This document shows, one piece after another, positions 639-63,540 of a stretch of DNA of 64,000 nucleotides. Made by a program: the position numbers and the translations under genes. A model generated the notes under the pieces. The model did no database searches and had not been told where the DNA came from. It saw only the letters and a list, made by a program, of their open reading frames with translations. This DNA is from Afipia sp. GTDB lineage: Bacteria > Pseudomonadota > Alphaproteobacteria > Rhizobiales > Xanthobacteraceae. Each line of letters begins with the position of its first letter. The first letter of the stretch is position 1. Location: assembly GCA_030652315.1 (NCBI GenBank), contig JAUSAX010000038.1, forward strand, positions 1-64,000. Reading direction: 5' to 3'.

Positions 639-1490
639 ATGACTGCCATCGCCGCGACCGGCTCCGAAACCGTCATCGACACCGGCACCGAGGAACTGCT
701 TTGCGTGGTGCGCGAGCGCGTCGCGGTCATTACGCTCAATCGCCCGCATGCGCGCAACTCGCTCTCTGACAATCTGACCCCGGCACTGCGCCGCATGATC
801 AAGCTCTGCGGCGAAGATGCGAATGTCGGCGCCATTCTCATCACCGGTGCGGGCGAGGCCTTCTGCGCCGGCGGAGACATCAAGGGCATGGGCGGCAAGA
901 GCGGCGGCAGCAACGCACCCGAACTGACCTTCGACGAGAAGGTCGCGCGGCTGCAGGAACGTCAGCGCACGCTGACCGGCGCGCTAGTTAATGTGCGGAA
1001 GCCGACCATCGCGGCGCTGCCCGGCCCGGCCGCCGGCGCCGGGCTATCGCTGGCACTGGCGTGTGACCTGCGCATCGCGGCAGAGTCAGCCTTTGTCACC
1101 ACAGCCTATGTGAAGATCGGGCTCAGCGGCGATTACGGCATGTCATGGTTGCTGACGCGCCTCGTCGGCACGTCGCGCGCGCGGGAACTGATGTTCTTCG
1201 GCGAAAAGATTGACGCCAAGCGATGCGAAGCGCTCGGCATCGTCAATCGCGTTGTGCCGGACGACAAGCTGCGCGAGGAAGCCTTCTCCATGGCGAAGCA
1301 GCTTGCTGAAGGTCCATCGACCGCGTTGCGCTTTCTCAAAGACAATCTCGACGAAGCGCTGATGAACGATTTCATGACCTCACTCGATCATGAAGCCGAG
1401 CGCATGGTGCGATCCGCAGGCACTGCAGATCACAAGGAGGCCGTGAAAGCCTTCGTCGAAAAGCGCAAGCCGGTGTTCGGGGAAACTTAA
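639..1490 (+). CDS. Enoyl-CoA hydratase/isomerase family protein
   Basis: Crotonase fold motifs (ITGAGEAFCAGGDIKGM, GPAAGAGLSLALACDLRIA); ORF opens at 543, ATG at 639 is the likelier start. Confidence 0.88.
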   Translation: MTAIAATGSETVIDTGTEELLCVVRERVAVITLNRPHARNSLSDNLTPALRRMIKLCGEDANVGAILITGAGEAFCAGGDIKGMGGKSGGSNAPELTFDEKVARLQERQRTLTGALVNVRKPTIAALPGPAAGAGLSLALACDLRIAAESAFVTTAYVKIGLSGDYGMSWLLTRLVGTSRARELMFFGEKIDAKRCEALGIVNRVVPDDKLREEAFSMAKQLAEGPSTALRFLKDNLDEALMNDFMTSLDHEAERMVRSAGTADHKEAVKAFVEKRKPVFGET

Positions 1491-1511
1491 ATCAACTTCC
1501 GGCTCATCAGC

Positions 1512-1596
1512 CGTCATTGCGAGGAGCACTTGCGACGAAGCAATCCAGTTCTTGCTGTTCTCAAGACTGGATTGCTTCGCTTCGCTCGCAATGACG
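1512..1596. repeat. REP-like inverted repeat, family CGTCATTGCGAG...GAAGCAATCCAG...CTGGATTGCTTCG...CGCAATGACG (copy 1)
   Basis: Self-complementary arms; related copies at 26455 and 29088. Confidence 0.85.
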
Positions 1597-1645
1597 ACTG
1601 ACTGGAGGAGCGTTCTTCCTCTCTCCCACAAGGGAGAGGGAAAAA

Positions 1646-3526
1646 TCACACGCCTTCGAACTGCAGCCGGGCCAGCCGGGCATAGAGACCGTTCTCCGCG
1701 ACCAGCGAGGCGTGAGTGCCCTGCTCGACGATGCGGCCGTTTTCCATCACCAGGATGCGGTCGCAGGACAGGACAGTCGCGAGGCGATGCGCGATCACCA
1801 GCGTGGTGCGGTGGCTCATCAGTTCTTCCAGCGCAGTCTGCACCAGCGTCTCGCTTTCGGCGTCGAGCGATGACGTCGCCTCGTCCAGCAGCAGCAGCGG
1901 CGCATCGCGCAGGATCGCACGCGCAATCGCAATGCGCTGGCGCTGGCCACCGGACAACGTGACACCACGCTCGCCGAGTTGCGTGTCGAAGCCGAGCGGC
2001 AACCGCGTGATGAATTCGGTGGCGTGGGCCAGATCGGCGGCACGCGCGACCTCGGCATCGCTGGCGTCGGGGCGTCCGAAACGGATGTTCTCGCGGGCGC
2101 TGGTGGCGAACACCGCCGAATCCTGCGGCACCAGCGCGATGCGTGAGCGCACCGCAGACGGATCGGCCTCACGAACCGGCACGCCATCGACCGAGATCAC
2201 CCCGGAGGCAGGATCGTAGAACCGCAACAACAGATGAAACAGCGTGCTCTTGCCCGCACCCGATGGTCCGACCACCGCGACCTTTTCGCCGGCTTTCACC
2301 GCGAACGACACGCCATCGACAGCAAGATGATCGGGCCGCGTCGGATAGGAGAACCGCACATTGTCGAACACAACGTCACCGCGCGGCGGCACCGGCAGCG
2401 CGCGCGGGCTAGCAGGCGCGGCGATGTCCGGCTTGATGCGCAGGATTTCGAACAGCCGCTCCGACGCGCCGGACGCCTGAGAAATCTCGCCCCATACCTG
2501 ACTGAGTTCGCCGAGCGCGCCCGCCGCGAACGCGGCATAGAGAATGAACTGGCCCAGCGTTCCGGCGGTGATCTGATGGGTCAGCACATCGTGCGAGCCG
2601 ATCCAGAGGATCGCCACCACGCTGGTGAAAATCAGAAAGATCACGGTCGCGGTGAGGAACGCGCGGGCGCGGGTCGAACTGCGCGCCGCGACATAGGCGC
2701 GATCGACTTCCTTGCCGAACCGCGCCTCGGCCAGCCGCTCGTTGGTGAAAGCCTGCAGCGTGCGGATCGCGCCGATCAGTTCGGAGGCATAGGATGATGC
2801 ATCGGCCAGCGTGTCCTGCGCGCCGCGCGACAGTTTCTGCACGCGGCGGCCGAACGCGACCAGCGGCAGCACGATCAGCGGAATCACCGCCAGCACAATG
2901 CCGGACAGCTTTGGGCTGGTGATAACCATCATGGCGGACGCGCCGACGAACAGCACGAGGTTGCGCAGCGCGATCGACACCGACGCGCCGACCGCCGACT
3001 TGATCTGCGTGGTGTCGGCGGTCAGGCGCGAGACCAGTTCGCCGCTGTGCGCGGTATCGAAGAACGACGGCGACAGCGATGTCAGATGTTTGAACACGTC
3101 GCGACGCAGATCGGCGACGATGCGTTCTCCCAAGGTAATGACGAGGTAATAGCGCGCGGCACTGGCGCAGGCGAGCACCGCCACCACCGCGATCATCACC
3201 GCGAAGTAGCTGTTGATCAGCGCGATGCCTTCGGGGCTGAACCCGAAATCGATCATGCGGCGCACCGCAAGCGGCACCGCCAACGTCGCCGCCGAGGCGA
3301 CGATCAGCGCCACCAGCGCACCGAGTGCCTGTCCGCGATAGCGCGCCACGTAGGGCACCAGCGCCATCAGGGGCCGCAGCTTCACGCCGCGGGATTTCTT
3401 CCGCGATGTCTCCGGCGCATCAGGCGACGGCCCCGCAGCAGGCGTGGAGACCCCTTTGACCGCTCCCGCCTCCCGCGCCAGCGCGGATGGCAGACCCGGA
3501 TCTTCAACGCGTTCCACTGCACTCAT
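1646..3526 (-). CDS. ABC transporter, fused permease and ATP-binding protein (MsbA/ABCB-like)
   Basis: TM region plus Walker A GPSGAGKST, signature LSGGQRQRIAIARAIL, Walker B LLLLDEATSSLD. Confidence 0.92.
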   Translation of the reverse strand: MSAVERVEDPGLPSALAREAGAVKGVSTPAAGPSPDAPETSRKKSRGVKLRPLMALVPYVARYRGQALGALVALIVASAATLAVPLAVRRMIDFGFSPEGIALINSYFAVMIAVVAVLACASAARYYLVITLGERIVADLRRDVFKHLTSLSPSFFDTAHSGELVSRLTADTTQIKSAVGASVSIALRNLVLFVGASAMMVITSPKLSGIVLAVIPLIVLPLVAFGRRVQKLSRGAQDTLADASSYASELIGAIRTLQAFTNERLAEARFGKEVDRAYVAARSSTRARAFLTATVIFLIFTSVVAILWIGSHDVLTHQITAGTLGQFILYAAFAAGALGELSQVWGEISQASGASERLFEILRIKPDIAAPASPRALPVPPRGDVVFDNVRFSYPTRPDHLAVDGVSFAVKAGEKVAVVGPSGAGKSTLFHLLLRFYDPASGVISVDGVPVREADPSAVRSRIALVPQDSAVFATSARENIRFGRPDASDAEVARAADLAHATEFITRLPLGFDTQLGERGVTLSGGQRQRIAIARAILRDAPLLLLDEATSSLDAESETLVQTALEELMSHRTTLVIAHRLATVLSCDRILVMENGRIVEQGTHASLVAENGLYARLARLQFEGV

Positions 3527-31084: not shown

Positions 31085-31558
31085 ATGTCCATTGCTCCCA
31101 CACTCCGGCAATATCTGATTGCTGAAAACATCCAGTACGACGAGATTCCGCACGAACTCACCATGTCGTCCATGCGCACGGCTGAAGCATGCCGCGTCTC
31201 GGGCGACCGCCTCGCCAAGGGCATCGTGCTGCGGCGCGACGGCGGCTATGTGCTGGCTGTCATGCCGGCATCGCATCACCTCCACCTCTTGGAACTGAGA
31301 AAAAAACTCGGTGAAGATGTCGATATGGCCGATGAAACCGAGATCGGTCAGCTGTTTCGCGACTGCGCGCACGGTGCGGTTCCGGCCGTTGGCAAATGCT
31401 ACGGACTGGATCTGATCGTCGATGACAGCATCGAGGCGCAGCCGGAGATCTATATGGAAGCCGGCGATCACGAGACGCTGCTTCATCTCAGTGGTGCACA
31501 GTTTGCGCGGCTGACGGCCAACGCACTTCATGGGCGCTTCAGTTCACATGATGCATGA
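31085..31558 (+). CDS. YbaK/aminoacyl-tRNA deacylase (EbsC/ProX-like)
   Basis: MSSMRTAEACRVSGDRLAKGIVLRRDGGYVLAVMPASHHLHL...GAVPAVGKCYGLDLIVDDSI. Confidence 0.88.
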   Translation: MSIAPTLRQYLIAENIQYDEIPHELTMSSMRTAEACRVSGDRLAKGIVLRRDGGYVLAVMPASHHLHLLELRKKLGEDVDMADETEIGQLFRDCAHGAVPAVGKCYGLDLIVDDSIEAQPEIYMEAGDHETLLHLSGAQFARLTANALHGRFSSHDA

Positions 31559-31692
31559 CTGAGGATTTGTCGTTGTACCTGCGGCGGGCATCCGGATGCC
31601 CGGGAACAGCTCATCGCGTGCCCGGCGCCGAAGCGCCTGCGCGATCGCATGACTTGAAAATCCTGTCATAGATGTTTATGTTCCGGCCTGCG

Positions 31693-31737
31693 TACGGGAC
31701 GACCCGTATTGCTTCAGCTTTCGTCGGGGACGGCCCC
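31693..31737 (+). promoter_or_regulatory. Candidate guanidine-II (mini-ykkC) riboswitch upstream of atpB paralog
   Basis: Two perfect hairpins with ACGR tetraloops: TACGGG-ACGA-CCCGTA (31693-31708) and GGGG-ACGG-CCCC (31726-31737), 17-nt linker. Confidence 0.75.
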
Positions 31738-31858
31738 ACATCTCCTGGAGAGATGTCGGGACGGTCGCTCCGGATAGGAAGCCTTCCCCTCATCATGCTC
31801 CGTTCAGGATCGCTCCGTGCCATCGGATGCGATTGCTTTTGCATGCGACAGGGACATC

Positions 31859-32608
31859 ATGGCCGGGCCGATTGAACAGTTCGAAATCAAGCCGATTCTG
31901 CAACTCGGCGAGATCGCCGGACAGCAGATAAGCATCACCAACTCGACCGTTTACATGTTCGTGACGGTCGGCATCATCGGCTTCTTCATGCTTCTTTCGA
32001 CGCGGCGAAGCGCGCTGGTGCCGGGACGGTGGCAGTCGGCTTCGGAGATGCTGTTCGAGTTCGTCGCAAAAACAGTGCGCGAAAACGCTGGCGAAGAAGG
32101 CATGCGGTTTTTTCCGCTGGTCTTTTCGTTGTTCACCTTCATTCTGGTGGCGAACCTGCTCGGCATGCTCCCCTACGCTTTCACCGTCACGAGCCATCTC
32201 GCCGTGACCTTGGCGATGGCGATGATGGTGTTTCTGACGGTCACCATCTACGGCGTGGCCCGCAACGGTTTCGGCTTTCTGCGGCTCTTCCTGCCGTCGG
32301 GCATTCCGCCATACATCGCGGTGTTCATCGTCCCCATCGAGGTGATTTCCTATCTGTCGCGGCCTGTGAGCCATTCCGTACGTCTGTTTGCGGTGATGCT
32401 CGCGGGGCATATCACGCTGAAGGTGTTCGCGGGTTTCGTCGTCGGTCTCGGCGGCCTCGGAACACTGGGCATTCTCGGGGCAGCAATGCCGTTTCTGATG
32501 GTCCTGGCCCTGACCGCGCTGGAACTCCTGATGTCCGTCATCCAGGCCTACGTCTTCACCATGCTGACCTGCATGTATCTCAACGACGCGCTGCACCCGG
32601 GGCACTAG
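31859..32608 (+). CDS. Orphan F0F1 ATP synthase subunit a paralog
   Basis: 249 aa; 156/249 identical positions to the AtpB at 62500-63249 by ungapped hand count; [18 protein letters not shown] retains the essential Arg. Confidence 0.93.
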
Positions 32609-32636
32609 CTCCAGGCGCACTCCGTATTCAAGTCCA

Positions 32637-32692
32637 GAGGAACGACCTCCCCATTTTGGGCGCAATGACCGGGACGGCCCGGCCCAATGGAG
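32637..32692 (+). promoter_or_regulatory. Second candidate guanidine-II-like element, immediately upstream of sugE
   Basis: GAGG-AACGA-CCTC (32637-32649) and CCGGG-ACGG-CCCGG (32669-32682); linker CCATT(TT)GGG (32651-32660) complementary to CCCAATGG (32683-32690), which overlaps the SD GGAG. Confidence 0.65.
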
Positions 32693-32700
32693 ATTTGAAA

Positions 32701-33021
32701 ATGGCCTGGATCTATCTCGCAGTGGCCGGCATTCTTGAAATCGTCTGGGCCTATTCGATGAAGCAATCGGAGGGTTTCACGAAGCTCGTTCCGAGCACCA
32801 TCACCATTGTCATGATGATTGGCAGCTTCGCGTTGCTGTCCATCGCCATGAGAACACTTCCCCTCGGGACCGCCTATACCATCTGGACAGGGATCGGGGC
32901 CGTCGGCGCATTCCTTGTCGGGATCATCGTCCTCGGCGAGGCGGTGACGGTCATGCGTCTCGCGGCCGCCGCCCTGATTGTTTCCGGTCTCGTCATGATG
33001 AAACTCTCGACGTCGGCGTGA
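32701..33021 (+). CDS. sugE: SMR family exporter, SugE/Gdx (guanidinium exporter) type
   Basis: MAWIYLAVAGILEIVWAYSMKQSEGFTKLVPSTITIVMMIGSFALLSIAMRTLPLGTAYTIWTGIGAVGAFLVGIIVLGEAV matches the SugE/Gdx pattern. Confidence 0.92.
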   Translation: MAWIYLAVAGILEIVWAYSMKQSEGFTKLVPSTITIVMMIGSFALLSIAMRTLPLGTAYTIWTGIGAVGAFLVGIIVLGEAVTVMRLAAAALIVSGLVMMKLSTSA

Positions 33022-62499: not shown

Positions 62500-63249
62500 A
62501 TGGCCGATCCGATCCATCAATTTGAGATCCAGAAGATCTTCTCGCTGGGCCACATCGGCGGTCAGGAGATCGCGTTCACCAACTCATCGGCCTACATGTT
62601 CGGCGCGGTTGCCGTCGTCTCATTGCTGATGATCGGCGGCAGCGCCGGACGCCATCTGGTCCCCACCCGTTTCCAGTCCGTCGCGGAACTGTCCTATGAA
62701 TTCGTCGGGAACACGCTGAGAGAAAGCGTCGGCGACGAAGGCATGAAGTTCTTCCCCTTCGTGTTCTCGCTGTTCATGTTCATCCTGACCGCAAACATGA
62801 TCGGCATCATTCCCTACACCTTCACCGTGACCAGCCACCTCATCGTCACGCTGGCGCTGGCGCTGATGGTGTTCCTGACCGTGCTGCTCTACGGCATTTA
62901 CAAGAACGGCTTCAAATTCTTCAAGCTGTTCGTGCCCAGTGGCATTCCGCTTTATATCCTGCCGCTCATCATGGTGATCGAGGTGATCTCGTTCCTGTCG
63001 CGGCCGGTGTCCCACTCCGTGCGTCTGTTCGCGAACATGCTGGCAGGTCACATCACCCTCAAGGTGTTTGCGGGATTCGTAACATCGCTGAGCGCGCTCG
63101 GCGCTGTGGGCATCTTCGGTTCGATATTGCCGCTGGCGATGACGACCGCGCTCACCGGCCTCGAAATTCTCGTGGCTTTCCTGCAGGCCTACGTCTTCAC
63201 CATCCTGACCTGCATCTACCTCAACGACGCACTTCATCCCGGACACTGA
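62500..63249 (+). CDS. atpB: F0F1 ATP synthase subunit a
   Basis: [23 protein letters not shown]; followed by atpE and atpF'. Confidence 0.96.
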
Positions 63250-63312: not shown

Positions 63313-63540
63313 ATGGATCCAGTTGCAGCAAAGTACATCGGCGCCGGCATCGCTTGTCTCGGCATGGGCGGCGCAGGTATCGGCGTCGGCATGATCTTCA
63401 GCCAGTTCCTCAACGGCGCGCTTCGCAACCCGTCGGCCTCGCAGGGCCAGTTCGCGAATCTGATTTTCGGCTTCGCCGTGACGGAAGCGCTCGGCATCTT
63501 CTCGCTGCTCGTCGCGCTGCTGCTGTTGTTCGCCGTCTGA
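63313..63540 (+). CDS. atpE: F0F1 ATP synthase subunit c
   Basis: [75 protein letters not shown]. Confidence 0.97.

Follow-up and report, generated by a model that had tools for sequence, protein, structure and literature searches.

Why should the gene for a second F0 subunit a of the ATP synthase lie behind a guanidine-sensing RNA and beside a gene for a Gdx-type exporter? The question is raised by an Afipia locus in the window analysed here, a stretch of 64,000 nucleotides whose features are collected in Table 1. A preliminary description had read the locus as hairpins, atpB paralog, hairpins and sugE, and our matches to Rfam, PF00119, NF004482 and PF00893 place the same elements in the same order at the same positions. 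It had also proposed a guanidine-responsive unit joining the subunit-a paralog to a Gdx exporter, with proton leak or adjustment of the proton-motive force (PMF) as the outcome. The genomic part of this proposal is strongly supported by conserved linkage in other genomes; leak or PMF adjustment found no specific support, the residues for coupled rotation being kept and no private c subunit being found in the genome.

Table 1. Features of the riboswitch-atpB-gdx unit, reference genes in the window and riboswitch-linked neighbours in relatives.
Feature	Position	Strand	Basis or remark
Guanidine-II (mini-ykkC) riboswitch, aptamer 1	31691-31738	+	Rfam RF01068, 37.4 bits against a cut-off of 32
Aptamer 1, P1 stem, loop ACGA	31693-31698/31703-31708	+	
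Aptamer 1, P2 stem, loop ACGG	31726-31729/31734-31737	+	
Hairpin ACATCTC-CTGGA-GAGATGT, directly 3' of P2, first GGAG inside	31738-31756	+	Sequence and fold; putative expression platform
uORF, 40 codons, 17-nt overlap with atpB start	31753-31875	+	Possible translational coupling
Paralogous F0F1 ATP synthase subunit a (second atpB), 249 aa, intact	31859-32608	+	PF00119/NF004482
Second guanidine-II-like tandem hairpin, 5' of sugE; P1 loop A-ACGA, P2 loop ACGG	32633-32682	+	RF01068 23.8 bits, below cut-off
sugE/gdx-like SMR transporter, 106 aa	32701-33021	+	PF00893 E=8.2e-29; NF008512 118.3 bits
Housekeeping atpB, start of F0 operon, reference outside unit	62500-63249	+	63% identity to paralog
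Housekeeping atpE (c subunit)	63313-63540	+	Only c-subunit gene found in genome
Guanidine-II-linked neighbourhood genes (ChaA-like antiporter, divergent MrpF)	L150, L152, L159, L163, ~760-1190	-	
Guanidine-II-linked neighbourhood genes (ChaA-like antiporter, divergent MrpF)	L150, L152, L153, L159, L163, ~1300-2520	+	

Aptamer 1 is the sole match to the Rfam model RF01068 in the whole genome at E<=0.001, and it adjoins the SD-containing hairpin and the uORF, not atpB itself. The gdx-side element is below the cut-off in the window, and its equivalents in many relatives are above it. This element has a five-base P1 loop, with an extra A before ACGA, which is shared by five Afipia units including the window and by one Mesorhizobium unit (window 32633-32682; L088-L090 and L111, downstream of atpB). 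The score of the SMR gene against NF008512 (the SugE equivalog) falls slightly below the cut-off of 126 bits and is its top one among all SMR subfamilies; by these matches its product is an SMR protein of the SugE/Gdx kind, with guanidinium export as the predicted activity. Elsewhere in the genome, a stand-alone gdx (L205 244-320, G000:C143) has a guanidine-II P2 hairpin broken by inserted sequence, the copy in G065 being intact. Because of this interruption, the unit in the window may be the strain's sole working guanidine-II. Immediately 5' of the unit, at 31085-31558, lies a gene for a YbaK-like aminoacyl-tRNA editing domain (PF04073).

By its matches to PF00119 (E=4.5e-65) and NCBIfam NF004482 (361 bits; cut-off 225), the paralog is an F0 subunit a of full length. 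A structure model built from a 51-sequence alignment reached a pLDDT of 71.4 (47.5 for a first model from 8 sequences) and superimposed on yeast mitochondrial subunit a (6b2z) with a TM score of 0.85 (E=9.9e-13). When 86 paralogs were compared with 43 housekeeping genes, the paralogs formed a single branch (support 100/98, present in 100% of bootstrap trees), separated from the housekeeping genes by a divergence that leaves 60-65% identity. Purifying selection acts on them, dN/dS being 0.03-0.11 across nine pairs; with the gene intact, a pseudogene is ruled out. Alternate F1F0 operons of the N-ATPase kind (TIGR03306, altF1_A) likewise add a subunit a to that of the housekeeping operon, but each of them is a complete operon that includes its own c-subunit gene, whereas the paralog is a lone subunit a. 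Its TIGR03306 score of 82 bits against a cut-off of 302, together with the absence of atp genes beside it, rules out an N-ATPase origin. A second c-subunit gene was not found in the genome, which rules out a private rotor; for the same reason the housekeeping atpE is left as the sole candidate rotor partner for the paralog.

Residues were numbered by alignment to solved subunit a and by the E. coli numbering of the literature. The paralog's R175, E161, S164 and Q229 correspond to aR210, aE196, aS199 and aQ252, and H184 occupies the position of aE219, E222 that of aH245 and V179 that of aN214. R175, E161, S164, H184, E222 and Q229 do not vary across the 86 paralogs and 80 housekeeping genes compared. 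Two positions separate the groups. At the aN214 position, beside the essential Arg, Val occurs in 86/86 paralogs against Asn in 80/80 housekeeping genes, the paralog count being partly ascertained by the scan pattern: the peptide LFAVMLAG, used to collect 78 of the loci, contains V179, and only the eight seeds are unbiased at that residue. At residue 225, one helical turn before Q229, all 86 paralogs have Met and the housekeeping genes Val or Ile; M225 is absent from both scan patterns. A literal proton leak, as first suggested for the locus, finds nothing to recommend it in the sequence, all residues for coupled rotation being retained in the paralog.

Similarity searches and riboswitch-model searches were run on the same genomes, 120 of the family and 398 of the order, so that their coordinates are comparable. 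In these surveys the closest relatives of the window protein were those of G065 (96%), G408 and G321 (both 75%), G045 (74%), G434 (67%), G316 (66%) and G506 (64%). In each of the seven, RF01068 matches the strand that carries the paralog, 18 to ~280 nt 5' of its start, and each of these genomes also has a separate housekeeping atpB. All eight unbiased closest paralogs, from four families, have a guanidine-II riboswitch just upstream. Direct reading of the loci placed gdx downstream of the paralog in G065, G434, G506 and G316, the last of which belongs to another family and has the complete arrangement riboswitch-atpB-riboswitch-gdx. In G045, G408 and G321 the atpB unit stands alone, and gdx, at another place in the genome, is preceded by a guanidine-II riboswitch of its own. 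Because many units have no adjacent gdx, the paralog appears to respond to guanidine in its own right and not as a helper to the exporter.

When the eight-paralog alignment was used to scan GTDB genomes, 80 loci were retained, comprising 78 paralogs and two housekeeping genes. RF01068 exceeded its cut-off upstream of 69 of the 78 paralogs and scored exactly 32.0 at one more (70/78 at the cut-off); four further paralogs have sub-threshold matches (31.6, 31.6, 31.6 and 25.0), giving 74/78 with the weaker ones included. No recognisable RF01068 switch was found upstream of the remaining four (L109, L135, L141 and L145), three of which are one Pseudochrobactrum cluster, nor upstream of the two housekeeping loci. 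The L135 contig is labelled Bacillus subtilis SK6B4, but its atpB paralog resembles those of Pseudochrobactrum; the assembly is probably mislabelled or contaminated. Among the hosts, many of them soil and plant bacteria, are Afipia, Ensifer, Brucella (former Ochrobactrum species), Pseudochrobactrum, Shinella, Aminobacter, Mesorhizobium, Phyllobacterium, Agrobacterium, Rhizobium, Kaistia and one Reyranella MAG (L155); by family they are mainly Rhizobiaceae, Brucellaceae, Phyllobacteriaceae, Nitrobacteraceae and Kaistiaceae besides the one Reyranella. As to spread outside Hyphomicrobiales, the best matches listed for a class-wide sample of 387 genomes included no additional paralog; that Reyranella MAG does have one. 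The paralog is an accessory gene, present in two of five sampled species of the window's genus and plasmid-borne in one Phyllobacterium. Co-occurrence in other genomes, on which the preliminary description had staked its proposal, was found for riboswitch and paralog in at least six families, with gdx next in many. Guanidine co-regulation of the paralog is, as a prediction from this linkage, well supported. With all the paralogs in a single clade, the linkage may have arisen independently only a few times.

The adjacency of gdx, in some units only ~30 nt downstream of the atpB paralog with no riboswitch between, could also mean that the paralog has left F1F0 and been recruited, still as a membrane protein, for a guanidinium-related task such as partnering Gdx or forming a conduit of its own. 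No F0 partner genes lie near the paralog, as such a recruit would have it, but the rotor-contact and proton-transfer residues are all invariant, selection is strongly purifying, the fold is unchanged and units without an adjacent gdx exist. To our knowledge, moreover, a lone subunit a has no transport activity without a c ring, and we consider recruitment quite unlikely.

The stems of the RNA itself are conserved and covary. In 62 distinct atpB-linked switches, P1 pairs 1-7 are 97-100% paired (GC, AT, UA and GU types), P2 pairs 1-4 are 100% paired and the loops are ACGA or ACGG only. The units follow two layouts, close-spaced and distant, the window being of the distant type. Where the spacing is close, ~20-27 nt separate the end of P2 from the start codon, and in many such units the 3' arm of P2 is able to pair with the SD region or an adjacent purine tract, which is the usual ON-switch logic of guanidine-II; by a strict criterion, the SD-pairing fold was computed in 11 of 20 close-spaced units. 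Distant units have P2 followed immediately by an ATCTC..GAGAT hairpin with an SD-like sequence, as the window does. uORFs ending at or just past the atpB start occur in 20 of 45 distant units against 7.5 +/- 2.2 in shuffles, a comparison that is indicative only, the units being related, and their peptide sequence is not conserved. Translation in the distant units would be coupled from uORF to atpB. In Kaistia-type units (L064 2277-2324, L065 and L148, downstream of atpB) the loops of the pre-gdx riboswitch are AUGA and ACAA where ACGR is usual, changes that preserve the complementary loop-loop kissing pairs (U-A, G-C). Because both loop changes keep these pairs complementary, the Kaistia-type switch may be a variant form whose ligand binding has changed.

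The window alone might suggest that atpB is there by chance or hitchhiking, merely downstream of a riboswitch that serves gdx, since the weak one of its two switches is that near gdx, and 120 nt lie between the strong one and atpB. This is countered by the solo atpB units with their own riboswitch, whose gdx is elsewhere under another (G045, G408 and G321), by the SD pairing directly before atpB in close-spaced units and by a regular expression for tandem ACGR hairpins, which matched 67/78 paralog upstream regions against 0/77 for housekeeping atpB and 1/1170 background windows. These controls led us to reject chance placement, to which we attach next to no probability.

In Agrobacterium and Rhizobium, guanidine-II riboswitches in the same neighbourhood also precede a gene for a ChaA-like Na_Ca_ex antiporter and, in divergent orientation, one for the antiporter subunit MrpF, here an orphan (Table 1). 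The ChaA-like unit recurs in L108, L112, L115, L120 and L157, and in L039 it is found in a genome without an atpB paralog. Between two guanidine-II riboswitches, 5' of the atpB paralog, L150 has a small ORF at 2585-2800 (with equivalents in L152, L153, L159 and L163) that begins MMWKTPQ.../MMWNAP... and encodes one hydrophobic segment. The ChaA-like/MrpF neighbourhood is compatible either with a guanidinium-tolerant F0 or with a modified form of the earlier idea, PMF or pH tuning, whereby altered proton affinity or conductance of F0 would balance ATP synthesis and the gradient during proton import by Gdx. Tuning of this kind draws on that proton/cation theme, on the two protons that Gdx takes in per guanidinium exported (PMC12186494) and on the E. 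coli substitution aN214L, which keeps synthase-direction stepping and raises the half-channel pKas by 0.7-0.9 (PMC8754430). Yet no channel residue that would predict a leak is lost, adjacent gdx is often missing from the unit and other gdx-bearing lineages, E. coli included, cope without the paralog; we judge PMF tuning somewhat unlikely. A modified, still coupled F0 fits the retained residues and the single half-channel change at least as well.

Another alternative is one of assembly or dosage: guanidine, as a denaturant, would harm membrane complexes, and the unit would supply extra, stabler subunit a with its channel function unaltered. Guanidine is indeed chaotropic and, in E. coli, triggers the heat-shock response (PMC12186494), but extra dosage leaves unexplained both the clade-wide fixed change at the aN214 position and the long divergence from the housekeeping gene, and seems to us very unlikely.

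The reading that we favour over proton leak, tentatively but as a real possibility, is that the unit is a guanidine-inducible alternative F0 stator that makes F0 guanidinium-tolerant. Guanidinium would bind the riboswitch and turn on translation of the second subunit a; the Gdx guanidinium/proton antiporter would likewise be turned on, by its own riboswitch or as second cistron. The paralog would then replace the housekeeping subunit a, assembling with the ordinary c ring and b subunits. Its entry into F1F0 we infer from gene content, because no other rotor was found in the genome for it to join. Free guanidinium is the same chemical group as the side-chain head of the essential Arg, the residue in contact with the c-ring carboxylate, and would disturb the ordinary half-channel or Arg site; the Val/Met-altered interface would tolerate it, and exporter and resistant target would be induced together.

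The purpose assigned to the paralog, guanidinium tolerance, is the most speculative part of this scheme. aN214 sits with aQ252 next to aR210 (PMC8754430). By analogy, free guanidinium is a plausible competitor at the Arg site, because Arg offers a guanidinium group to the c-ring carboxylate, because Arg mimics act there (bedaquiline mimics the subunit-a Arg at this carboxylate, and arginine-mimetic acylguanidines inhibit F1F0 weakly; PMC8873251) and because the half-channels let in Ag+ near N214 (PMC6377231); the exchange of the polar Asn for Val beside the Arg could plausibly be the countermeasure. Two points from the same literature count against tolerance: steric limits have been argued to bar many guanidine mimics from the a-c interface (PMC8873251), and aN214 is among the less essential channel residues, with glycine or a hydrophobic residue there naturally in T. 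thermophilus and T. gondii (PMC8754430). The full proposal, a stator-subunit exchange under riboswitch control in which guanidinium mimics the essential Arg and the cell builds a tolerant Asn-to-Val F0 in addition to efflux, we regard as possible but doubtful.

Inducible alternative-target resistance, such as a second isoleucyl-tRNA synthetase against mupirocin, offers a works-like comparison, a stressor-tolerant copy of the component that is hit being made. The component proposed here differs in that it belongs to the stator of a rotary motor, as one of its subunits, and would be controlled by a stressor-sensing RNA. With the guanidine-II switches of gdx/sugE (RF01068), of which gdx is the classical target, the Afipia unit shares the aptamer, the tandem ACGR hairpins and the translational layout, but the first gene under its predicted control is that of an F0 subunit a. 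The paralog, in turn, has the fold, length, essential Arg and other half-channel residues of an ordinary subunit a (atpB, PF00119, NF004482) and differs in being an orphan outside the atp operon, in its predicted guanidine control and in the fixed changes of N to V at the aN214 position and V/I to M at 225.

A 2025 review of guanidine biology does not mention the ATP synthase and gives efflux as the only known guanidine-specific stress response (PMC12186494). In open-access full text we came across no account of such a subunit a, whether orphan or under riboswitch control, and in the open-access literature none that connects guanidine with ATP synthase or a guanidine riboswitch with ChaA/MrpF; the remark that no system with this gene pair had been described thus holds for that text. 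A second subunit a behind a guanidine RNA switch, often beside the exporter gene, suggests that part of the motor is rebuilt when guanidine is present. The ATP synthase would thereby join the guanidine response, and the paralog would offer a genetic handle on why guanidine is toxic. It carries a natural, clade-fixed substitution at the very residue that biophysicists have mutated in E. coli to study proton transfer. If our reading is true, a metabolite-sensing RNA would here decide which isoform of a motor subunit is used, an unusual arrangement.
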